Assembly: GCF_033115175.1 (NCBI RefSeq)
Contig: NC_084827.1
Location: forward strand, 60,263,201-60,327,200
Direction: 5' to 3'
Length of the DNA stretch: 64,000 nucleotides
Source of the DNA: Lepus europaeus
Taxonomy: Eukaryota; Chordata; Mammalia; Lagomorpha; Leporidae
Position numbers and translations under genes: made by a program. How positions within the stretch are numbered: the stretch's first letter is position 1; the number at the start of each line of letters is the position of its first letter. The notes beneath the pieces are model-generated. The model saw only the letters and a list, made by a program, of their open reading frames with translations, was not told where the DNA came from and did no database searches. Below, one piece after another: positions 20,018 through 57,734 of the stretch.

Positions 20018-20215
20018 ACAATTCAAAATCTGGCTAGGAAGAATTTCATTAAGACGTTTGAAATGTCTTTATATAATGCTGGATTTCAATTGATTTCTAT
20101 TTTTTTAAATTCTCTGTCAGATGTTTTTGTGTGTCTGTGAACCAGTAACAGGTACAAATTATATTACATTTTGGTTACCACGGCAGATCCTACACTGTCA
20201 TAAAAAATGGAGTGT

Positions 20216-20399
20216 TGCTCTTTGTCTCCATCTCCTGATCTCTCTCTCTGTCTCTCTGTCTCTTGATTTCTCTCTCACTCTCTCTTATACTCTCCTTCTC
20301 TTTTTCCCTTATTTTCCCCCTCCCTCCAGTCTGTCAGGTTTTCCCCAGTAAACTCTTTCCCTTACTCTGTTGTTTGGTGTGTTCTGTGGCGGCCTTACA
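20216..20399 (+). repeat. 5' R-U5 of the processed ERV
   Basis: R (about 20,216-20,363) is CT-rich, matches 25,185-25,343 throughout, and ends 'agtaaactctttccctta'. U5 is only about 36 bp and ends 'ggccttaca', with the CA expected of an LTR end. No U3 lies upstream; the direct repeat starts immediately. Confidence 0.8.
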
Positions 20400-20400
20400 T

Positions 20401-20418
20401 TGGTGCTGTAACTCGGAT
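20401..20418 (+). promoter_or_regulatory. Primer-binding site, tRNA-His type
   Basis: tggtgctgtaactcggat sits one base after the LTR end. It matches the histidine-tRNA PBS (tggtgccgtgactcggat) at 16 of 18 positions. Histidine priming is used by HERV-H-like class I ERVs, so this suggests a class I element without proving the family. Confidence 0.75.
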
Positions 20419-21216
20419 GCAGGCTCCCCCAGTGACTGTGCTCTCCCTTCGGGGATCTCTGAGCTGCCCTGAGGTCCTGGATTTCTGCCAGTCACAAAAC
20501 ACACCCTGGTAACTCCTTCCAAGCCACTGAATGCTTCATAATCTCCATCCACACACCGGCCTCCAAAATTCTGAGGTAAGATGTGGAGCGGAAATTCCTA
20601 TGGTGACTTCTATGGGTTGTGGTTCTACTCTCGTCTAAAAGTCCTGGTACTGAGTGCAAACCACAACTCCTGAAGGCCTTTTGGTCTCTACGGACTCTGT
20701 GTCTGGGCCATAATGTGTGTGGATGATGACTCAACTTCCTGTTTCTCTTCTACAGGCTAAGGCCTGGCCTCCAGTGGGTGCTTGGGTTATTATGACCCCA
20801 GTCCTCTGTTCGCATAGTCTCTCATCAGTTGGATGGCCAGGATTTTGGAGCCATCCCGAAATCTGCAGATCTGACTCTATAGGTCGCCATGGGAGCTTCT
20901 TTATTTCCACATTCCAATTAAGTAATATGGTCCCTCTCAAATTGCCTCCAGACCTCAAATGGCGACCCTGATAGCTTTATCACTTCTGTGAGCAATCAGG
21001 GAAATGGAAGGAGATCCACATGTTCAAACTTTTCTATCTTCAATCTAAACCTTCTATGTGTACTTCCTGCTCTCTGGCCCAGGTCTTGTTGGCCTCCAAC
21101 ATTTCCACTAGAGGTCAAGGGCCTGAGCCGAAGCCTCTTCTACGTTTGCAGCTCCAACTCTTCCCTGTCTTGGCTCACTGGTAAAAAAACAATCAAGTGC
21201 TAAAAGATGAGTTCCC

Positions 21217-21552
21217 GCCGGCGCCATGGCTTAACAGGCTAATCCTCCGCCTTGCGGCGCCAGCACACGGGGTTCTAGTCCCAGTTGGGGTGCCGGATTC
21301 TATCCCGGTTGCCCCTCTTCCAGGCCAGCTCTCTGCTATGGCCCGGGAAGGTAGTGGAGGATGGCCCAAGTGCTTGGGCCCTGCACCCGTATGGGAGACC
21401 AGGAGAAGCACCTGGCTCCTGGCTTCGGATCAGCACGATGTGCCAGCCGCGGCGGCCATTGGAGGGTGAACCAACGGCAAAAAGGAAGACCTTTCTCTCT
21501 GTCTCTCTCTCTCACTATCCACTCTGCCTGTCAAAAAAAAAAAAAAAAAAAA
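21217..21552 (+). mobile_element. Young C-SINE2 inside the ERV
   Basis: Near-consensus copy starting 'gccggcgccatggcttaaca' and ending in about 20 A's. It post-dates the ERV insertion. No clean direct repeat was found. Confidence 0.93.
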
Positions 21553-22311
21553 GAATAGCAAGGAGTGGTAGTGGTAATCCCATCCTGAGCTCCCTGCTTA
21601 TTGAAACAAGTTAGGTATCCCACCCTTCTGATGGTTCTTTTGTTTTATCATGAGCAAACCAGAGAGAAAATCAGGTCTTTTGACCTCCACCCCAGTGGAG
21701 TTCTTGTCTTTGGTGCATAGACCTCTGGCCCACTGTCACCTTGGGAACTGTCTGCCAGCTGCCTGAACTTTTGTTTCAGAGGCAGTCCCAAGTGGCTGAC
21801 TCTTGATTATGACATCATGGGCCTAAGGTGTTCTTAGGGAAAAAAGCAACTGTAATTAGACACTGAGTTTGAAGAAATTTTTCTTTGACTCTAGGAAGAT
21901 CACTACCTTTAAAAATATTGCTTTGTAATTTGCTGAATTTATTTTGCTATTTATTTTAACAGGTTTTCTTGGTAATCAGTACTCAAAGAAGCAGCAATGG
22001 ATAATTAGTACTTGTTTTAGATGAATTAAATTTTAATTTTAATTGAATTCAGATAAATATATAATATAATATAATATAATATAATAGCATTTAAATCATT
22101 TAGGTATAACTACTAATGTAAATTGGGTAAAGGCCAATGAGATAAATGGATCTAAATGTAAACTTTGGTACTCTCAGCACGTCATATTCTATAGAAAAAC
22201 TATTTGGGCTTGTTTAACAAATATGTTTTCATAAACTATTCATGAAAAATACTTCAACACTGCTTAAAGTAACTTCGGCTGAAATTTGATGTGTTTCCTT
22301 ATTAATTTCAA

Positions 22312-24748
22312 AAATTTGGACTTTGACAATGTCCAGATGGGCCCCTGAAAATTTCAAAGATACATGTCTCTCATCTTATAGAAACACCAACTAATCATTG
22401 GATTATATTAGAAGTACTGTCAAGATGTGAAGTGGTGCTAAATTTTAAGTTTTGATGATATAAAATGCTACTGATACAAATGTCTGAAAGTTAAAAAATC
22501 TAATGATCTTGGGTTACTAAACATGATGGTTATCTTAATGAGAAAGATTGGAAGACAAAAGGGTTAAATGTTTTGTAAAATCCTATAGGTGCTTTTGAAA
22601 ATACTGTGTGAAGTAAGCAAGTGCCTCTTGTTGGTTGATGAGTTTATAATTTTAAACATGGCTACTTGAAGTCTTTTGTCATCCACAGTTTTATAGATCA
22701 TATTTGCTGCTCATAAAACTAAAACATGGTTGGTTCTGTGTTTAGTTATCCTCCTCTAGGTTCCGATGGACTTTTTCCAGCCACTTCTATTGTATTCAGT
22801 ACTTTGGGATGGTTCTGTAAACAGAAAAAGCCAAAAATGTACTACAGGTTCCAACTGGAAGAAAGTATGGTTAATTCAGCTTACTAAGAGCAGAAAGTAA
22901 TTCAAATCAATTGGTAATTAAAAAAAAAACAGTTAAAGAGTTTAAGAAGCTTTATTGTTCTTTTATGTTTTGTTATATGTGTATACTTACTATATGTATA
23001 CATGAGAAAACTTATTAAGAACTTTGTTTTATTTGGCTTATAGATAAAAGATTGCCCATAAATTTAAACAGCTAAAATATATCTTTGTAATCAAAGTGAT
23101 CTGAATCTCTGTATCAGATGTTTTAAATCTGTTGATAGAAAGAAATTAAAGCGTTTTTAAATGCTAATGCTTGAATTTTCTGGTTAAACAAGCTACATTA
23201 TGTTAGATATTTAAGAGATATTTTCAAATACATGTATTAAAATTTATAGAAGGCATTGGACCTTCTGTTAAATGTTTTCTTAAGCTGTTATCTAATGGTT
23301 GAAATTGTTTGCTAAGTTTTCATTTGATGTTGCTATTGTCAGCAAGTGATCTGGGACTTGCCTCCTCATTTCTCTATTCTAAGCCTGACTTTTCCCTCAT
23401 TTCTCTATTCTCTTTGAAGTAGGAAACTAATTTTATCCTGAATGACTCTCCAAGATGCACAATTTGATTTTTAGATCTCATAAAAGGGATGGCTAACATT
23501 TTCTGTAATAGCATAGCCAACATGAGAGCTTAAATTATAATTTCATAGCTAAATTTATTTTGCCATTGGCACAGTAATCAGGCAAAACCTCCCTTTCAGA
23601 CCACACAAAGGGGTAGAAAGTTTTAAAGTGAGGATATAGCTTTTCTCATGGGCTTTGTCTACCTCAAAATAAACCACTATCAGAACATGTCAGTGACTAT
23701 AGACTTCAAGTTTAGACTACTGAAGATTAGAGATGGGACTTGAGCACCCCCTTGACTTGCATCCTCTGGTCTGCTTTAATAAAAACCAGGAGGAAAAGAA
23801 AGCGAGGCATCAGAAGCAATGTAAAGATAGGTGGCAGGCCTATTAAATGTAACTCTGTACAGTGATCTGCCATCAAAGAGACCCAACAGGCCAGTCCACC
23901 GCAGTGGCTTTCAAAGTGGTAAGCCTGGGCTTCAGCAGAAGTCAGCTTATAAAGAGCCTTGGCAGCTCTGTGAGCCAAGAATTGGACTACTGGAAATGGA
24001 ACTGCTCTGGAGTCAAAGGATGCCCAGGTTATAGCCACAGACCTTGCTAGCTCCAAGCTGTAAAGACTTTACTTGGCCCAGCTTCCAAAATGACTACCAC
24101 TGCAGCTGAGGGGACAGCCAAATAGGGTCAGTAACACCACAGGCAGAACTATAAATTTCCTGTTAGAGATGCCACCTGACTACCTGGCCAGCTCTCCTCC
24201 CAGGCCAGCTAGGTGATGGTAATCAACAGGGTGCCTTCCCAAGGAGGTTCACACCCATGTGAAGAGATAGATAGGTCTGGGCCTCATAACTGATAAGGCC
24301 TTAAAGCCCACCAGATTATTACTAAGCCTCTTCTGTCAGTTTCTATTTAACTCTCAGAGAACTTATTTGTAGCTCAGACAGCACCTCTCTTAGGTCCTCT
24401 AATAATGACTCTGTCCTTTGTTCTAGACCCTGTCTAGCCTATTTGAGGCCTCATCCCTTTATAATCATAGCATCTACTCAAACATCAATGGCTCTACTTC
24501 CAGCGTGTATGTATTGATGGTTCTGTCCCCCACTTAATGTTGTATGATCATTCAGAATTTCTCTACAGACAAAACCCTCTACCTGCAAAAGATGAATGGC
24601 TTTTCTCCTGGTCTTGGTTGGGAACAGTTTTAAATCACGTCTATCAAACAGCCTTCACAAAGGTCCAAAGATCCTCTTCATTTCCTCTCATTATTTGGTT
24701 AATGCCACTCTTAGGATCATTGGTTGTTATTCTCACCCTGTCTTTTAT
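22312..24748 (+). repeat. ERV body shared with the L1 chimera
   Basis: From 'aatttggactttgacaatg' to 'accctgtcttttatac' this stretch aligns collinearly with 54,255-56,595, with many identical runs such as 'ggactttttccagccacttc' and 'aacatggctacttgaagtct'. It is AT-rich and mostly non-coding in appearance until about 23,780. The part at about 24,556-24,697 is absent from the other copy. Confidence 0.85.
23780..24055 (+). pseudogene. Degenerate gag nucleocapsid-like remnant
   Basis: Two overlapping frames together resemble the zinc-knuckle part of class I retroviral Gag. A first segment around 23,900-23,950 reads like 'GFQSGKPGLQ', and a second, in another frame near 23,975-24,020, reads like 'LDYWKWNCSG'. 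Cysteines are lost and a frameshift separates them, so the gene is broken. The homologous stretch at 55,709-56,020 keeps more of the cysteines. The call rests on motif likeness only. Confidence 0.45.
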
Positions 24749-24914
24749 ACTACAGTGTCTGTTTAAGTGTTTACAGGAGGTGATAATGGAACGAACCAAG
24801 GCCTTCAGCAACCAGGTGGTTAACCGGTCAACCCAATGCTGCTACAGGGATATACACGGCTCCCCACCCAAGAGACAGCAGCTAGAGACATCACCCCAGG
24901 TCAGCAGGAAGTAG
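24537..24914 (+). pseudogene. Env transmembrane-subunit-like remnant
   Basis: A 125-residue frame just upstream of the polypurine tract has a hydrophobic segment at residues about 51-78 ('WLMPLLGSLVVILTLSFI'), then a Cys-containing juxtamembrane part and a polar tail. Position and layout fit the C-terminal end of a retroviral Env TM subunit. The ectodomain, fusion peptide and CX6CC motif are not present, so it is a fragment. About 500 bp separate it from the gag-like remnant, so nearly all of pol has been deleted. Confidence 0.55.
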
Positions 24915-24990
24915 CTCTAAAGACAGATCATTGTCCCTCTACCCCTCCTGGAATTTTGGGCTAATACAATCCCATACAACTTCTGATTTA

Positions 24991-25010
24991 TAAAAAACAA
25001 AAGGGGGGAA
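24991..25010 (+). promoter_or_regulatory. Polypurine tract
   Basis: The run ending aaaaggggggaa directly precedes the 3' LTR start tgttag at 25,011, as expected for the plus-strand primer site of a retrovirus. Confidence 0.8.
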
Positions 25011-25343
25011 TGTTAGTAAAATGGTGCAGTCCCAGCACCATCCTAGGCTCTAGCCCCTGCCACCATTGCTGCAAGCCAGGTAGCCATGTGGCCCAACCAT
25101 CGGTGTCAGCCCAACCCCCATCCTAATGGGATTTGCTGCCACTACTTCCCTGCCCATCCCCTGGCAAAGTGTTCCTGAACATGTGGCTCTCATTCTCTCC
25201 ATCTCCTGATCTCTCTGTCTCTCTGTCTGTCTCTGTCTCTTGATTTCTCTCTCGCCCTCTCTCTTACACTCTCTGACTCTCTTTTTCCTTGTTTGCCCCT
25301 TCCCTCCAGTCTTTCAGGTTTCCCCCAATAAACTCTTTCCCTT
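25011..25343 (+). repeat. 3' LTR (U3-R) ending at poly(A)
   Basis: U3 is about 170 bp starting 'tgttagtaaaatggtgcagt'. R matches the 5' R and ends 'aataaactctttccctt'. AATAAA (25,327-25,332) is followed 11 bp later by eight A's, and U5 is absent. An LTR end made by reverse transcription would include U5. Confidence 0.82.
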
Positions 25344-25359
25344 AAAAAAAATGGAGTGT

Positions 25360-26298
25360 CTCTTCATAATTAATAGTCCTAGTAATTGCTATTTCCAATA
25401 GTTACGTAGATTTGAATACTTTCTTATTTGTACTGATTTTCTCCTCCTTAAAAGTATTCAAAAGCTTACTTATTTATGCATGGATTCTCATACCTTTAGG
25501 CTGAATCCATAAATTTTTAATAGCTGATGTACTTCTTGCAAAAAAAAATCACACATACAAATGTGTATAAACACACACACAAAAAAAAAAAACTATCAAG
25601 ACCTATGACATTTTCCACTCACTTTCTAGACAGTCTTACAATTTTTAAGTTTGCCAATTATTGCAAATGATAATTTGTCAAAAGAAATATACTCTAAAAA
25701 ATAAAGCTATGAGCTCAATATTTTAAATAACTCAGCAAGTATAAAATCGTCTCACTGTTTTCTCCAAATTAATTAATGTTGTTCTTCTGGGATGGCTAAG
25801 AAGACTCTAAAGTTGTTTGTGTTGGTTAGATTGATTGTCTTATTAATTAGTGATAGTGGAAGACTTTAGATCTTGTATAGAAAAAAACAGAAATAAATTA
25901 AAATTGTTACATAGGCAATTTACTGGTTTTGATGAGCCATGTCTCTTGGGAACAACACTGAAGAATTGATTTCCTTAGCAAACATTGAGTCAAACACATT
26001 CAGTAGCTTCCCACACAAACTGGTCCAATCTTCCTGATGAGAATAATTAGAAAATTCATAAATCATCAATAAATTAATTAACTGTTAAGGTAAAATATTA
26101 CTGGATAAAATCCAAGAAAAAGGAGACTTGGAGAGATAAGTTATCATTCTAATTATCTACAAAATTTAGAGTGCATGAACTACCAAGAAAAGGGATGTCT
26201 TGACAAGTATTTAACCTGCAGCTTACAGATAAGGGTGAATTAGGGAAAAAAAAAAACATAAATTTTCAGGAGAAATATAATCTTAAAAAGTAAAACAG
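25360..26298. other. Unassigned AT-rich sequence
   Basis: No gene or clear repeat. A short (CA)n/A-rich patch lies at about 25,570-25,592. Confidence 0.4.
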
Positions 26299-27507: not shown

Positions 27508-27518
27508 CCAATGATGTA

Positions 27519-28269
27519 CAACTCCCTGGTAATAATAACAGAATTAAAAAGGAAAGAAAGTCCAAAAGGGAAGCAGTCCACACAGCAGAGTCCTAGAATG
27601 ACATTTGCTGTGAATAACACTATGACCTCAGAATCAACCCTTAAAGCTTCCTGGTCTGGCTGAAAGGCCTGGGAGAGCATTTCAGGCATGGAAAGCCAAG
27701 ACTCTGTAGAAAAAAAAAGATATCCTACAAGCAGGATCTCTCTGAGACCTCAGTGGAAAGAAAGGGCCATCAAAGGAAGATATATTCTTCTCTGAAGGGA
27801 GGAGAGAATATCCACTTTGCTTATGGCCGTGGCCACATACTGATGGAGTCTATGATCTCAAAAGGCTTCCATAGCCTTGGCAGCCCATGTCAAGAGCCTC
27901 AGGTGATCACTGACATCATAAATAAGAGTGTTAATTGTTAAAAGAACAACAGAAGTCACTCCCCATGTAGGACCTCTGTCCCTAATGAGTTGTACTATGA
28001 CAATCAACTGCAAATTTTGTGCCCAAACTGTACTCTATATGTTGTGTGTGTACATGGGTGCAAACTGTTGAAATCCATGCTTAACATAGAGTTGGTCCTC
28101 TGTTTATAAAATCAAACTAAAAATGAACCATAATGAAGGAGATAGGAGAGAGAGAGGGAGGTGGGATGGGAGGTAAGGTGGGGAGGGTGGGTATCGGGGA
28201 AAGAACCACTATATTCCTAAAGTTATATCTACAAAAAAATGCATTCATTAAATAAAAACTTAAAAAATA
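27519..28269 (+). mobile_element. 5'-truncated rabbit-type L1 3' UTR
   Basis: The plus-strand 3' UTR carries the standard landmarks 'aggcatggaaagccaagac', 'ggcttccatagccttggca' and 'gggtgcaaactgttgaaatc', ending 'attaaataaaaacttaaaaa'. An 11-bp direct repeat ccaatgatgta lies at 27,508-27,518 and 28,270-28,280. An older subfamily than the copies at 40 and 50 kb. Confidence 0.88.
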
Positions 28270-31802: not shown

Positions 31803-33119
31803 ATTTTTTAAAACTTTTATCAGTAAATATAATTTTCCAAAGTACATTTTATGGATTACAATGGCTATCCCCCCTCCCATAACTTCCCTCCCACCCACAC
31901 CCCTCCCATCTTCCACTCCCTCTCCCATTCCATTCACATCAAGATTCATTTTCAATAATCTTTATATACAGAAGATTGATTTAGCCTATTGAGCCATGGC
32001 ACCGTGGCTTAACAGGCTAATCCTCTGCCTTGCAGCACTGGCACACCGGGTTCTAGTCCAAGTTGGGGTGTCGGATTCTGTCCCGGTTGCCCCTCTTCCA
32101 GGCCAGCTCTCTGCTATGGCCCGGGAAGGCAGTGGAGGATGGCCCAAGTGCTTGGGCCCTGCACCCCATGGGAGACCAGGAGAAGCACCTGGCTCCTGCC
32201 TTGGGGTTAGCGTTGTGCGCTGGCCACGGTGGCCATTGGAGGGTGAACCAAGGGCAAAGGAAGACCTTTCTCTCTGTCTCTCTCTCTCACTATCTACTCT
32301 GCCTGTCAAAAATAAAAATAAAAATAAAAAATAAAAAATAATAGGAAAAAAAAAGAAGATCGATTTAGTATATATTAAGTAAATATTTCATCGGTTTGCA
32401 CCCACACAGAACATAAAGTGTAAAATACTGTTTGAGTACCAGTTATAGCATTAATTCACATTGGACAACAATTTAAGGACAGAGATCCCACATGAGGAAT
32501 AAGTACACAGTGACTCCTGTTGTTGATTTAACAAATTGACACTCTTGTTTATGGCATCAGAAATCTCCCTAGGCTCTAATCATGAGTTTCCAAGGCTATG
32601 GAAGCCTCTTGAGTTCACTGACTTCAATCTTATTTAGACAAGGTCATAGTCAAAGTGGAAGTTCTCTCCTCCCTTCAGAGAAAGGTACCTCCTCCTTTGA
32701 TGGCCCATTCTTTCTACTGGGATATCACTCACAGAAATCTTTCATTTAGAGTGCTAGAGTGTCTTGGCTTTTCATGCCTAAAATACTCTCATGGGCTCTT
32801 GAGCCAGATCTGAATGCCTTAAGGGCTGATTCTGAGGCCAGAGTGCTATTTAGGACATCTGCCATTCTATGAGTCGGCTGCTGTGTATCCCACTTTCCAT
32901 GTTGGATTGTTCTCTCCCTTTTTCATTTGGGACATGCTCAATCGCACTTGCCCCTAATAGTGGAGTTAGAAATGTGCCAGGGGATTCCAATACAATCCAA
33001 TCAAGAATGCATGTACTAATGCCATCTCACTAGCCCAAGTGATCAATTTCAGTTCACAATTGATCACACTGATAGGTCTAAGAGTCAAAGGGATTGCACA
33101 AATAAGACTAGTGTCTGCG
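31803..33119 (-). mobile_element. Twin-primed L1 insertion (5' part inverted)
   Basis: The left arm (31,803-32,925, split by a SINE) is a minus-strand L1 3' UTR from poly(A) inwards. At about 32,926 the orientation flips, and the right arm (to 33,119) is plus-strand 3' UTR lying just upstream of the left arm in the consensus, with about 20 bp lost. A perfect 16-bp direct repeat aatatccattgggatt lies at 31,787-31,802 and 33,120-33,135, so both arms are one insertion. Confidence 0.88.
31985..32354 (+). mobile_element. C-SINE2 with fold-back 5' end
   Basis: The direct repeat gaagat(t/c)gatttag lies at 31,971-31,984 and 32,355-32,368. Between the left repeat and the SINE head are 15 extra bases, cctattgagccatgg, which are nearly the reverse complement of the SINE's own first bases (ccgtggcttaacagg). 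The tail is (AAAAT)n rather than pure A. Confidence 0.9.
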
Positions 33120-33484
33120 AATATCCATTGGGATTTAAAATAATATTTATACAAGGTAAGAATCAAAGTAATGTCCTCAGTGTATTAAAAAGACAGCAAA
33201 ACAATCATATTTAATGTTTAATGAAGAAATAAAGTTTTCTCTATGACAAATATAATATTGAAAAGTTATGGTGAGATTGCTAAAACATTTTTGAAAGAAA
33301 AATTAATGAAGCTTTAAAGAAATTAAGGGATGCCTCATATTCCTATATTGTAATACAAATGCTAAAATATGAATTATTCTTAAATTGACTATAGATTCAA
33401 TAAAATCATAATCAATATCCCAGGTCTTATTTTTGTAAATGTACAGCATTTCTCACTCACATAGCGCAGGTTGTTGTCAACATT

Positions 33485-51060: not shown

Positions 51061-51937
51061 GGACTCCTGTTGCTGACTTAACAATTTGACACTCCTGTTC
51101 ATGGCGTCAGTAATCTCCCTAGGCTCTAGTCATGAGGTGCCAGGGCTATGGAAGCCTTTAGAGTTCGCTGACTTTGATCTTATTCTGATAGGGTCATAAT
51201 CAAAGTGGAAGTTCTCTCCTCCCTTCGGAGAAGGGTACCTCCTTCTTTGATGGCCCCGTTCATTCCACTGGGATCTCACTCACAGAGATCTTTCATTTAG
51301 GTCATGTACTCCATAGAATACTATACAGCAGTAAGGAACAATGAAACCCAGTCATTTGCAACAAGATGGAGGAATCTGGAAAACATCATGCTGAGTGAAT
51401 TAAGCCAGTCCCAAAGAGACAAATATCATTTGTTTTCCCTGATCGGTGACAACTGAGCACCAAAGGGGAAACCTGTTGAAGTGAAATGGACACTATAAGA
51501 AACAATGACCTGATCAGCTCTTGTTCTGACTCTAGATGTACAATGTAACACTTTATCCTTTTTAGTATTTGCTATTGTTGTTGTTGTTCTAGTACTAGTG
51601 GTTGAACTCTGTAATTAACACACAATTATTCTTAGATGTTTAAATTTTAACTGAAAAGTGATCCCGGTTAAATATAAGAATGGAAAAAGAGAGGGAGGAG
51701 ATGTACAATTTGGGACATGCTCAATTGGACTTGCCCCAAATGGTGGAGTTAGAAATGTGCCAGGGAATTCCAATACAATCCCATCAAGGTGGCATGTACC
51801 AATGCCATCTCACTAGTCCAAGTGATCAATTTCAGTTCACAATTGATGTCTCTGATAGGTCTAAGAGTCAAAGGGATCACACAAACAAGACAAGTGTCTG
51901 CTAATACTAACTGATAGAATCAAAAAGGGAGAGAAGG

Positions 51938-52855
51938 GAGAGCGGCAAGATGGCGGAATAGGCAGGGAGCACACTATTAGCCCGGGGGGAGAGAAAGTTT
52001 AATATAAGTGGAGATACTGCAGGGTCAAGGAAGAGTAGGGGATGAAACAGCAGAGGAAACTCTTCCAGAACTAGTGATTCACAGTGGACCTGCGTGGAGA
52101 GCGTGGGAGCCCAAGTTCGGGACACCAGCGGCAGACTCAACACACCAGCGCTGGAACGCGAGGTGAGCCGAACCTCCATAGCCCGAGATACCAGCGGGCA
52201 AGCGGAAAGAGGAGGCTAGAGGGAACGAGGCTTGAAACTCCGTGGGGAAAAGTTCACCAGGCTAACTAGAAGAGAGAGAAAAAAAATAAAAAAAGTGACT
52301 GATACGGACACAAGTTCCTCTCTCTCCCCTCACCTCTCAAAGGCGAGCAAGACAGAGCAGGCGCCATTTTGGACATACGTCATAAGCAGGGCGACCTCAG
52401 GTCTGCACCAGCCCTGAGCCTAGCAGAAAAACCTGACTCTGGGGGGAGGGGTGAAATAACAGGAGATTAGCATCTAACTTGGCAACCCAGTGGGAGACTG
52501 CAGGAGAATTGGAGCCCACACTGAGGGCAGCAGAGATTCCCTGTGTGGTCCTTGGGATAGAGCTTCTGATCTCTGGCTCCTGTGGGTATATCATTTGCCT
52601 GCTAACTACCTCCAATTACGTTCAGCTGTGCAGAATTACTTCCCTTTTAAATCAAAAAAAGAAAGAGAGATTTACCACACCTAACCTGGGAGTGTCATCG
52701 TTGACACACCCTCAACCCTGAGGAACCAAACACAGCTCTCAGTCCACACTCATCTCAAGCCTCTAAGGCTCCACTGAAAGCAGACAGTCCACTTAATATA
52801 GAGCCATAGTGTAACAAGAAAAAACACCACAGTGAAGAAACCAAATATCTCCAAC
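51938..52855 (+). promoter_or_regulatory. L1 5' UTR (internal promoter region)
   Basis: About 0.9 kb, GC-richer than its surroundings, begins directly at the direct repeat, so the element is full length at its 5' end. L1 5' UTRs hold an internal pol II promoter. The start carries a YY1-type site, as in human L1. The 3' part before ORF1 is A-rich ('gtgaagaaaccaaatatctc'). A C-rich patch at 52,320-52,345 and several CpGs remain. Confidence 0.75.
51946..51956 (+). promoter_or_regulatory. YY1-type site at the L1 start
   Basis: caagatggcgg lies within the first 20 bases of the element. In human L1 an equivalent aagatggc site positions transcription start. The sequence and its location are seen; function here is inferred. 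Confidence 0.65.
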
Positions 52856-53893
52856 ATGCCAAACAACAAACGCAAAAACCGAGGTAACAAGAACAAGGAA
52901 GACACTATGATGCCCCCAAATGAAAAAGACACCCCAATTCAAGATTATGAAGATGATGAGATAGAAGAAATGCAAGAAGCGGATCTCAAAAAATTGATAA
53001 GAACATTAAGAAGTTCTCAAAAACAAATTCTTGAACTACAGAAATCCTTAGTGGACAAGATAGAAAATCTCTCTCGTGAAAGTGAAATATTAAGGAGGAA
53101 TCAAAATGAAATGAAACAACTAGTGGAACAAGAAACTCTGATAGTGACGAGAAATCATAATGAAATGAAGAATTCAATAGATCAAATGACAAACACATTA
53201 GAGAGCCTTAAAAACAGAATGGGCGAAGCAGAAGAGAGAATATCAGACTTAGAAGACAGAGAACAGGAAAGGAAACAGGCAAACCAAAGAAAAGAAGAAG
53301 AAATTAGAAATCTAAAAAATATTGTCGGGAATCTACAGGATACTATTAAAAAACCCAACATTCGGGTTCTAGGAGTTCCTGAAGGCATGGAGAGGGAGAA
53401 AGGATTAGAAGGCATTTTCAGTGAGATACTAGCAGAAAATTTCCCAGGTTTGGAGAAGGACAGAGGCATCTTAGTACAGGAAGCTTATAGAACCCCTAAT
53501 AAACATGACCAAAAGAGATCCTCACCACGACATGTTGTAATCAAACTCACCACAGTGAAACATAAAGAAAAGATCCTAAAAGGTGCAAGAGAGAAATGTC
53601 AGATCACTCTTAGAGGATCTCCAATTAGACTCACAGCAGACTTCTCATCAGAAACCCTACAAGCTAGAAGGGAATGGCGAGACATAGCCCAGGTACTAAG
53701 AGAGAAAAACTGCCAGCCCAGGATACTATATCCTGCAAAGCTCTCATTTGTGAATGAAGGTGAAATTAAGACTTTTCATAGCAAACAGAAACTGAAAGAA
53801 TTTGTTGCCACTCATCCTGCCCTGCAAAAGATGCTTAAAGATGTCTTACACACAGAAACACAGAAACATGGTCACCAATATGAAAGAAGGTAA
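52856..53893 (+). CDS. L1 ORF1 protein, intact, 345 aa
   Basis: Complete frame for the L1 RNA-binding nucleic-acid chaperone, which coats L1 RNA as trimers in the cytoplasm. The N-terminus is basic/acidic (residues about 1-42, 'MPNNKRKNRGNKNK'). A long heptad-rich coiled coil spans about 43-162, and an RRM follows at about 168-257, with 'IRVLGVPEG' at 169-177 and 'PRHVVIKL' at 224-231. A C-terminal domain runs from about 258 to 332, including 'QPRILYPAKLSF' at 287-298. Length and order fit mammalian ORF1p (about 340-370 aa). An in-frame GTG lies 24 bp upstream, but eukaryotic initiation favours the ATG at 52,856 ('ccaacATGcc'). It is the only clearly intact protein frame in the window. No ORF2 follows; the next sequence is a spacer and ERV-derived DNA. 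It could still be translated if the element is transcribed. Confidence 0.93.
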   Translation: MPNNKRKNRGNKNKEDTMMPPNEKDTPIQDYEDDEIEEMQEADLKKLIRTLRSSQKQILELQKSLVDKIENLSRESEILRRNQNEMKQLVEQETLIVTRNHNEMKNSIDQMTNTLESLKNRMGEAEERISDLEDREQERKQANQRKEEEIRNLKNIVGNLQDTIKKPNIRVLGVPEGMEREKGLEGIFSEILAENFPGLEKDRGILVQEAYRTPNKHDQKRSSPRHVVIKLTTVKHKEKILKGAREKCQITLRGSPIRLTADFSSETLQARREWRDIAQVLREKNCQPRILYPAKLSFVNEGEIKTFHSKQKLKEFVATHPALQKMLKDVLHTETQKHGHQYERR

Positions 53894-54254
53894 AGGAAGG
53901 AAACCTCACAGCAAAAGATCACAGGAAGCTCAATTTCTCTTTGACATAGAATTAAACTCTGATGCTCTGTTAAAGCAATGTGTTAAAGTAATCTATGATG
54001 TTCTCTTGATGTCTGTTAAATTCTAATTGTTCAAAAACAGCTGCATTTTTATTAAGAGCTATGGGTTATTTAAATATGTGCTTTTTTCAAAGATTTGAAT
54101 AATCACCTTGTAACAATGATCAAATTTGGTCTATGTTATGTCATGATATTAAGAAATCTTATTTCAACCAGATATTTTGGATTTTGAGCCTTCTTGGCAT
54201 TCTTGACAGGCTTTCAAAAAATCAAAGTTTCAAACAATCTGGTCTCTAAAATTT
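53894..54254 (+). other. Spacer between ORF1 and the ERV-derived body
   Basis: This is where L1 ORF2 should begin after a short gap, but no endonuclease-like frame is present. The first part ('ggaagctcaatttctctttg') may be genuine post-ORF1 L1 sequence. The rest is AT-rich, non-coding and matches nothing else I recognise in the window. It might be further ERV body that diverged from, or was deleted in, the copy at 22 kb. Confidence 0.5.
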
Positions 54255-56595
54255 CCAGTAAATCCTGGACTTTGGTTTTTCCAGTTTGGGCCCAACTGAA
54301 AAAATCAAAGGACCTATGTCTCTCATCTTATAGAGACACCAACTAATCAGTCTATTTGGAGTATATTAGAAGGACTGTCAAGATGTGATGTGGTACCAGA
54401 CTTTAAGTTTCTATAATGGAAAATGCTATTAATACAAATGTTTGAGAATTAAAAAGTCTAATGATCTTGTGTTATTAGACATGATAGTTATCTTAATGAG
54501 AAAGCCCCAGAGGCCTAAAGGGTTAAATACTTGTAAAATCCTACAGGTGCTTTCAAAAATACTGTGAAATAAGCAAGTGCCTCTTGTTGCTTGATGAGTT
54601 TATAATTTTAAACATGGCGACTTAAAGTCTTTTGTCATCCACAGTTACATATGATTTGCTGCTCATAAAACTAAAGCATTGTTGGTTCTGTGTTTAGCTG
54701 TCCTCCTATAGGTTCCTATGGACTTTTTCCAGCCACTTCTATTGTATTCAGTACTTTGGGATGGCTCTGTAAACAGATGACGCCAATAATGTATTAACAG
54801 TACCAACTGAGAGAAAGTATGGTTAACTGAGGTTACTAAAAAGAAAAAGCAATTCAAATCAATTGGCAATCTACAAAAAGAGTTAAAGATTTTAAAAGCT
54901 ATTATTAAAATTGCTATATTGGTCTATTATGCTATATTATATGTGTGTACATATTGTATGTCCACATGGGGAAATTTTATTAAGAGTTTTATTTTAAATG
55001 GCTTATAGATAAGATTGTCCATAAATTTAAGCTGCTAAAATCAATCAAAGATACATTTTAATTTGTGTGACCTGAATCTGTGTATCATATGTTTTAAACT
55101 TGTTGGTAGAAAGAAACTAAAAACATTTTAGATGGTTGTGCTTAAGTTTACTGGCTAAACAAACTACACCTTGTTAGATATTTAAGAGGTGTTTTCAAAT
55201 ACATGATTCTTAAAATTTATAGAAGGCATTGGACCTTCTGGTAAATGTTTTCTTAAGTTGTTATCTAATGGTTGAAACGGTTTGCTAAGTATTCATGTGA
55301 TATTGCTATTGTCAGCAAGCGATCTAGGACTTGCTCCCTCATTTCTCTATTCTAAGCCCAACTTGTTCTGTCATTTCTCTATTCTCTTCAAGGTAGGAAA
55401 CTAATTCTATTATGAAGGAATCTGTAGGATGCACAATTTAATCTTTAGACCTTATAAAAGAGATGGCTAACATTTTTCTGCAATAGCATAGCCAAAATAA
55501 GAACTTAAATAATAATCTCATAGCTAGATTCACTTCGCCATCAGCGAAGTATACAGTAAGTAGAAAAAACCTCCCTTTCAGACCAAAGGGAAAGAAAGTT
55601 TTAAAGTGAGAATATACTTTTCCTTATGGGCATTGTCTACCTTAGAAAAACTACTACAGAACATGCCTGTGACTATAGACTTGTAGTTCAGGCCACCGAA
55701 GATTAGAGATGGGACACGGGCACTCCCTTGACTTGCTTCCTCTGGTCTGCTTTAACACAAACCAGGAGGAAAAGAAAGCTCGGCATCAGAAGCAATGGGT
55801 GGCAGGCCTATTAATGTCTGATCTGTACAGTGATCTGCCCTCAAGGAGACCCAACAGGCCAGTCCACTGCAGTGGCTTTCAATGTGGTAAGCCTGGGCTT
55901 CAGCAGAAGTCAGCTTGTGAAGAGCCCTGGCAGCTCTGCCAAGAGTTAGATCACTGGAAATGGACCTGCCCTGGAGTCGAAGGATGCCCAGGTCAGAGCC
56001 ACAGATCTTATTGGCTCTAAGCTGAAAAGCCCTTGACTCAGCCCAACTTCCAAAGTGACCACTGCAGCTGAGGGGATGGTCAAGTAGGGTCAGCAACATT
56101 GCAGGCAGAACTGTAAATTTCTTGTTAGAGATGCCACCTGCCTTTACCTGGCCAGCTCTCCTCCCAGGCCAGCCAAGTAATGAAAGTCAACAGAGTGCCT
56201 TCCCCTAGGAGGTTCACACCTCCCTTAGGATATACCCCATGTGAAGAGATAGATAGGTCTGGGCCTCTTAACTTACAAGGCCTAAAGCCCACCAGATTAT
56301 TATCAAGCCCCTTCTATCAGGTTCTATTTGCCTCTCAATCAGAAAAATTACTTGTAGCTTAGACAGCACCTTTCTTAGCTCCTCTAATAATGACTCTGTC
56401 CATTGTTCTAGGCCCTGTCTAGTGCACTTGGGCCTCATTCCTTTGTAATCATAACCTCTACTCTACCACCAATGGCTCTACTCCCAACCTGTGTGTACTG
56501 ATGGTCCTCCTCCCCACTTAATGCTGTATAATTGTTCAAACCTGGTAAATGCCACTCTTAGGATCATTGGTTACTATCCTCACTCTGTCTTTTAT
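54255..56595 (+). repeat. ERV-derived body in place of L1 ORF2
   Basis: Collinear with 22,312-24,748 of the processed ERV, with frequent runs of 20 or more identical bases and only small indels. It ends 'ctcactctgtcttttat', the env TM-like region of the ERV, then switches to L1 3' UTR 'gaccttgtctaaatatgatc'. About 140 bp corresponding to 24,556-24,697 are missing near 56,540. No LTR, PBS or polypurine tract is included. Confidence 0.85.
55709..56020 (+). pseudogene. Gag nucleocapsid-like remnant in the chimera
   Basis: A 103-codon frame contains 'FQCGKPG' and, further on, 'LDHWKWTCPG', resembling the two zinc-knuckle regions of class I retroviral Gag. The first knuckle lacks its downstream His-Cys pair, and the frame carries no capsid or protease. 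It corresponds to the more damaged stretch at 23,780-24,055. The call is by motif likeness; a chance frame is possible. Confidence 0.45.
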
Positions 56596-57044
56596 GACCT
56601 TGTCTAAATATGATCAGAGTCGGCAAACTTGGAAGGCTTCCATAGCCTTGGCAACTCATGACGACAGCCTAGGATGGTTACTGGCGCCATAAACTAGAGT
56701 GTCAATTTGTTGGGTCAACAACAGGAGCCACTGTGCACTTGCTCCTCATGTGGGATCTCTGTCCTTAATGTGCTGTACATTGTGATTTAATGCTATAACT
56801 AGTACTCAAACAGTATGTTTCACTTTGTGTTTCTGTGTGGGTGCAAACTGTTGAAATCTTTATACTAAATTGATCTTCTGTATATAAAGAGAATTGAAAA
56901 TGAATCTTGATGCAAATGGAAGGGGAGAGGGAGCGGGAGAGGGGAGGGTTGCGGGTGGGAGGGAAGTTATGGGAGGGGGAAGCCATTGTAATCCATAAGC
57001 TGTACACTGGAAATTTATATTCATTAAATAAAAGTTAAAAAAAA
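56596..57044 (+). mobile_element. L1 3' UTR and poly(A) of the chimera
   Basis: Standard rabbit-type 3' UTR: 'aaggcttccatagccttggc', 'gggtgcaaactgttgaaatc', the G-rich 'gggagaggggagggttgcgg', 'attcattaaataaaagtt' and A's. It starts part-way into the 3' UTR, so its upstream portion and ORF2 are both missing. It has a single copy of the segment that is duplicated in the host L1. Confidence 0.88.
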
Positions 57045-57734
57045 AAAAAGGGAGAGAAGGATCCCACATGGGAAGCGGGATACACAGCAGACTCATAGAA
57101 TGGCAGATGTCCTAAACAACACTCTGGCCTCAGAATCAGCCCTTAAGGCATTCAGATCTGGCTGAAGAGCCCATGAGAGTATTGTAGGCATGGAAAGCCA
57201 AGACACCATGGAAAAGAAAAAAAAAGAAGCCAGTGAGATTCTTGTAATCAACTCAATGACTGGATTTTATACTAAACTGCTAAGGTACAATGCTTTCTAA
57301 GAGCATGTTTTGATGGGGAGAAGGAGGATGGAAAAGTGCTATTGTTTAGTGCAGACACATCAAGAGGAAAAGACATAGCCAATCAGATAGAGATGGAAAT
57401 ACCTCGGCCATGTTTGGTGAGAAACTCAACAGTCTGTAGTATTCTCCTGTTGTGCATTTGATTCAGATGACCTTGTCCTTTTATATTGCTCAGGAAAGTG
57501 AGGCTAGAGAAGTGGCAAGATCTAGAGGTGAGAGTGACAGATTGCAAAATTAACAAGTTCCATTCTTTGCTCTCTGTGCAGACGTATAAGATAGATCATG
57601 ATTCAGTGGCAGAAAGAAACAGAAGAGCAAGCCCTTGGAACTACAGAGATATAGTGTGGGCTTTGCTCCATCTTTCTACTCAAAGGTCAAGCACCTGCTT
57701 GATTGGCAGATTCTGTGTTTAGAAAACCTGTTTT

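Follow-up and report, generated by a model that had tools for sequence, protein, structure and literature searches.

The window analysed here, by which we mean the whole 64,000-nt stretch of the Lepus europaeus genome, contains on its forward strand a 5107-bp unit (~5.1 kb; 51938-57044) lying between exact 16-bp direct repeats. These repeats, AAAAAGGGAGAGAAGG at 51922-51937 and its exact copy at 57045-57060, are the left and right target-site duplications of the unit, and both stand exactly as an earlier sequence-only reading of this DNA had given them. The unit opens with an L1-type 5'UTR (51938-52855), which begins at the 5' end common to the copies of the element and is so named from its position before ORF1; near its start lies CAAGATGGC, which resembles the YY1 site of L1 promoters. 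It continues with an L1 ORF1 of 345 amino acids that is open in the window copy (52856-53893), a short L1 spacer behind the ORF1 stop (53894-53932), a non-coding interior of ~2.66 kb that aligns in sense orientation with copies of an endogenous retrovirus (ERV) and has no LTRs (53933-56595), the distal part of an L1 3'UTR (56596-57036) and a poly(A) tail (57037-57044). The labels 5'UTR and 3'UTR are based on position and on comparison with other repeats. This order of an L1 front with ORF1, an ERV body, an L1 3'UTR and poly(A) had been proposed from the letters alone, and is now backed by domain matches and alignments: the interval between ORF1 and the 3'UTR is ERV-like and contains no ORF2.

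The predicted ORF1 protein carries the L1 RBD and dsRBD-like domains (Pfam PF02994 and PF17490), and its residues 116-341 match the structure of human ORF1p (2ykp) with an E-value of 1.1e-64. A search for relatives recovered 1556 proteins; among the best 120 of these, the first 35 (P0001-P0035) are all from the rabbit Oryctolagus cuniculus, which also supplies the closest of the relatives listed, at 93% identity. In a quick tree, displayed without support values, 18 ORF1 proteins of the chimera cluster apart from these 35 rabbit proteins. This separation would fit either a leporid host other than the rabbit or a rabbit protein set from which the family is missing.

Junctions, related elements and insertion site

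A relative of the body in the window is an ERV copy on the forward strand (22317-24748), which is 82% identical over its main piece (22317-24554) and matches the body at 54266-56595. It is flanked on its two sides by LTR-like repeats (20213-20364 versus 25182-25344, 85% identical and partly CT-rich), and by eye a purine tract lies ahead of the 3' one. The family to which this copy belongs is large, with 2962 first-look candidates; among the best 40 places, which were scored, the others are ~80-84% identical to the window copy, and the family is older than the chimera. Seven open pieces, three from the window ERV and four from the chimera body, were searched against Pfam: six, including all four from the chimera, gave no hits up to an E-value of 1; the remaining one had two weak matches below the cut-offs.

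The window ERV copy aligns with the body only from 54266, and another copy of the same family (contig C21; L091, L092) aligns back to 53930. Further, two rabbit UniRef proteins (P0031 and P0033) have tails that seem to continue, in a different frame, beyond the ORF1 stop, with residues nearly identical to those of the chimera's spacer up to ~53933 and diverging beyond. Together these place the left junction, where L1 passes into ERV, at 53930-53936, some 40 bp downstream of the end of ORF1. The collinearity with the window ERV copy claimed by the sequence-only reading thus stands, but its length of 2.3 kb for the ERV part has to be extended to ~2.66 kb, as the ERV starts at ~53930. Its layout needs amendment in two further details, namely the continuation of L1 similarity for ~40 bp behind ORF1 and a site at 56539-56542 where the body is without 131-155 bp that ERV copies carry (141 bp in the window copy). 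In 13 of the 15 ERV loci searched, one of which is the window's own, the matching piece stops at 56586-56595 and carries this extra sequence; the other two (L085, L087) have no such matching piece. At the right junction there is a 3-nt microhomology, TAT, between ERV and L1 (56593-56595). From 56592/56593 onward the chimera aligns with several further interspersed 3' ends that the window contains, five of which were displayed.

The joined flanks of the unit align over the junction to an L1 copy at 27518-27718 on the forward strand, at 74.5% and with gaps of 1-5 bases, such that this copy represents the uninterrupted target, or empty site. Among the six joined-flank matches, one more crosses the junction, by 19 bases only, and four are one-sided. 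A cleaner empty site occurs at another locus (L053), where the left flank (92%) is followed by exactly 16 bases and then by the right flank (94%). Further on, the L1 in this locus includes the stretch that forms the 3'UTR of the chimera, at 78-85%; this 3'UTR and the L1 target sequence are parts of one repeat. The earlier claim that the interrupted L1 rejoins across the direct repeats is borne out by both sites, and judging from these alignments the insertion target was itself an L1. Its stretch at 51301-51453 looks, by eye, like an ORF2 C-terminus, with no Pfam match.

A young family with common junctions

We searched the 2.93-Gb genome to which the window belongs with a query spanning the left junction, which returned 757 first-look candidates. 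All of the best 40 places, which were scored, match 450-451 of the 451 bases at 99-100%, and the right junction is also present in 36 of them: the window, all 20 copies fetched whole, 13 of the 19 inspected at the collinear distance, and two (L049, L051) in which the right junction is spanned with insertions of ~350 bp. Among those without the right junction, three (L048, L050, L052) end in A-runs within the body, and in one (L053) the body is joined to other L1 3'UTR sequence. All 20 copies retrieved in full extend from 51938-51944 to 57043-57044 at ~98% identity, with internal gaps of 77 bp in L011 and 103 bp in L028.

The converse search with the right junction gave 82 candidates, and all 40 scored places span the junction; 38 of these are new relative to the left-junction list, the overlap being only the window and L028. 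Twenty of the 38 were examined. The left junction occurs at the collinear place in five, the 5' part is rearranged in two (L059/L074 and L064/L075), one (L061) has another 3' end, and in 12 the position collinear with the left junction lacks sequence of the element, as would be seen in 5'-truncated copies. One of the rearranged copies, L075, is 5'-inverted, with 52049-54985 reversed ahead of 55027-57044. The other, L074, lacks 53996-54835 and reaches only 92.8% identity in its 5'UTR, implying that the history of the family was not one simple master line. Nevertheless, the stretch around the left junction (53915-53950) is identical in 20 of the 21 full copies and differs by one substitution in the remaining one, and that around the right junction is the same in all 21 except for a single substitution in three. 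This agreement points to a single origin followed by spread: the chimera is a many-copy family with common junctions.

Target-site duplications, poly(A) tails and 5' inversions are the usual marks of target-primed insertion of the L1 type. Duplications of 13-19 nt flank 18 of the 21 full copies, the window copy included; among 420 mismatched flank pairs, 0.5% reach 13 nt. Of the 18 duplications, 13 begin with AA. Thus, the combination of a duplication (at least 13 nt in 18 of 21), poly(A) and an A-rich target that characterizes L1-mobilised sequence is found in this family. No clear duplication is seen in three copies (L014, L016, L024), and five (L017, L018, L022, L025, L028) have 8-17 nt intervening between duplication and element. 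The inverted, 5'-truncated-like and early-ending copies likewise fit the usual outcomes of L1-type insertion. LTR retrotransposons and ERVs, for their part, have flanking LTRs and duplications of 4-6 bp; we considered and rejected an assignment of the chimera to this class, as it has L1-type ends and a 16-bp duplication instead.

These copies also settle how the structure in the window is to be viewed. It might have been held that an ordinary L1 inserted here and later lost its ORF2 to the ERV piece by local replacement, or that the locus was misassembled; however, both junctions are found again at many loci whose flanks differ, which excludes a local misassembly and renders this explanation practically negligible, and a one-off event, an assembly error and replacement after insertion are all ruled out by the copies. 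The individual duplications of 18 of the 21 full copies support insertion of the whole as one unit, as had been claimed. Similarly, the suggestion of a non-autonomous family, and of a junction-spanning genome search to reveal it, was well founded: in the window's own genome there are multiple copies sharing both junctions (36 of the 40 left-junction places) and possessing their own duplications.

The tree of the copies is star-like, with terminal branches summing to 0.152 and internal ones to 0.023. The mean pairwise difference is 2.4% in the 5'UTR, 1.3% in ORF1, and 1.8% each in the ERV body and 3'UTR; without CpG columns it is 1.35%, 0.88%, 1.65% (body measured over 54310-56590) and 1.48%, respectively. 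Mammalian genomes accumulate 2-3 substitutions per billion years per site, and at this rate 0.8% per copy corresponds to about 3-4 million years, a figure from a sample biased toward young copies since these are the best matches to one query. The family is young and has spread recently.

Origin and mobilisation

We interpret the chimera as a non-autonomous composite retrotransposon family served by the ORF2p of L1s in trans, and place the probability of this reading at roughly 85%. It is grounded in the layout, the common junctions, the family and its individual duplications, the poly(A), the inverted and early-ending copies, and the mostly open ORF1. As the element has no reverse transcriptase, ORF2p would have to be supplied in trans. 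Its RNA would start from the L1-type 5'UTR, which may act as an L1 promoter, and would consist of ORF1, then the non-coding ERV interior where an L1 has ORF2, and finally the L1 3' end with poly(A). Cleavage of the target DNA and target-primed reverse transcription of this RNA would then be the work of ORF2p from autonomous L1s.

A single event most likely gave rise to the founder. In it, an L1 reverse transcriptase that had begun at the 3' end of an L1 RNA would have switched at the TAT (56593-56595) to an ERV transcript and then, at 53930-53936, back to L1 RNA within the spacer that follows ORF1. The parental L1 was sought by tblastn at E up to 1, which yielded no relative of ORF1 either in the window or in the sequence flanking the fetched copies, and by a spacer pattern, partly guessed from the protein tails, which had 0 matches. 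A DNA-level origin is a plausible if less favored course, in which an L1 acquired an ERV fragment through insertion followed by deletion, or through break repair, and then became the source copy. A short microhomology is also consistent with end joining, and the absence of the internal 131-155 bp from the ERV piece could be accommodated by such a history. Against it, though not decisively, the chimera retains no LTR, L1 and ERV are both in sense orientation at the two breaks, and the left break falls just behind ORF1, the last two being as jumps at the RNA level predict.

The role of the ORF1 frame is a separate issue. Scanned from codon 2 to the stop, it is open in 18 of the 21 copies, the defects being frameshifts in L011 and L022 and an early stop in L016. 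It could be a passenger in a family that moves in trans like SVA, its openness reflecting only youth, and to this we give a little under even odds. The ratio of nonsynonymous to synonymous variants per site in ORF1 (0.59 for singletons, 0.55 for shared variants) falls inside the values spanned by nine control frames from the ERV body (0.55-0.92 and 0.49-1.04, respectively), and shared variants are not fewer in ORF1 (32, versus 24-32 in six full-length control frames), as would be the case for a passenger. Singletons are fewer, at 67 versus 98-110 in the same six frames. On the other hand, frame-shifting indels number two in the 1038 bp of ORF1 versus 18 in the 2325 bp of the body (p=0.03 in a post hoc comparison; p=0.058 for all indels), non-CpG divergence is 0.9% in ORF1 versus 1.65% in the body, and the raw pooled dN/dS of ORF1 across 19 copies is 0.52. 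The evidence for selection on ORF1 is therefore mixed. More speculatively, and with a probability that we put well below even, the chimera might be a split LINE, encoding the ORF1p that acts on it in cis and taking only ORF2p from L1; the ERV interior would then help the RNA in its export, stability or packaging, and the family would be a lasting rival of autonomous L1.

Relation to known elements

The composite retrotransposon proposed here shares features with several known systems. With autonomous leporid L1s it has ORF1, the 3' end and the insertion marks in common, but it is without ORF2. HAL1, which encodes only ORF1p and is described as having arisen several times (PMC5753468), is one of the two nearest kinds, SVA being the other; it is likewise L1-derived, without ORF2 and probably dependent on the L1 machinery (PMC5753468; PMC4161310). 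However, HAL1 is described as an ORF1-only derivative of L1, whereas the chimera has a 2.66-kb ERV interior between ORF1 and the L1 3'UTR; it thus has the ORF1p without ORF2 that defines HAL1, but it is not L1-derived throughout, 53933-56595 being of ERV origin. A table of families with less than 1% divergence includes three LTR families for rabbit and no HAL1, and a reviewer in the same source calls the annotation of rabbit low (PMC3183009).

SVA and LAVA are described as composites mobilised by L1 proteins in trans, with the 3' end of SVA coming from HERV-K and LAVA carrying pieces of L1 (PMC7353768). The chimera resembles them in being composite and non-autonomous, and in having an ERV-derived part and L1-type insertion marks; it differs in its L1-type front, its coding ORF1, its length of ~5.1 kb and in having no VNTR array. 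A search for a hexamer array or VNTR in 51938-57044 found only one weak array of a 13-bp period and 1.9 copies. Chimeric L1 insertions similarly unite L1 and another RNA in one insertion, and the partners named in a 2026 survey are small RNAs, Alu and mRNAs, the terms ERV and HAL1 being absent from its main text (PMC13174262); the present chimera differs in existing in many copies as a family, and in having its foreign piece enclosed by L1 sequence. No lagomorph L1/ERV family is named in the titles or abstract openings of the papers listed in searches of the open-licence literature, an absence that is weak evidence. The chimera hence seems to work like HAL1 and SVA while conforming to the full definition of neither, and to our knowledge the layout of an ORF1-coding LINE/ERV composite is undescribed, with an existing entry in a repeat library being possible.

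What the hare genome offers, then, is many intact 5.1-kb units from the recent spread of an ORF1-coding LINE/ERV composite. The abundance of near-identical copies makes it a testable question whether a non-autonomous element benefits from an ORF1p of its own. More generally, it suggests that a hybrid can give rise to a successful family without encoding the enzyme by which LINE-1 is copied.

Source of the ERV part and an L1 inversion in the window

The interior of the chimera (the unit of L1 5' end, ERV body and L1 3'UTR) was captured from the ERV family to which the non-coding element with LTR-like ends at 20213-25370 of the window belongs; this family is large, with 2962 first-look candidates in the genome search. 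Elsewhere in the window, an L1 fragment with a 5' inversion (32759-33123) has its switch point about 30 bp or less from the L1 site hit by the chimera insertion.

Copies with alternative 3' ends

Three chimera copies, L048, L050 and L052, terminate in A-runs within the ERV part, at 54423, 54910 and 54932 respectively, and may reflect premature polyadenylation or internal priming. Another copy, L053 (G000:C2:163300959-163305359), retains the left L1-to-ERV junction and passes at 54982 from the ERV body into a longer L1 3'UTR, with no poly(A) between them, a structure that may represent either a deletion or an alternative chimera.

A variant copy with a divergent L1 front

The variant copy L074 (G000:C14:79370900-79377200) lacks 53996-54835, and its identity is only 92.8% in the 5'UTR and 96.8% in ORF1, as against 97.7% in the body. 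It perhaps belongs to a sub-lineage whose L1 front was exchanged.
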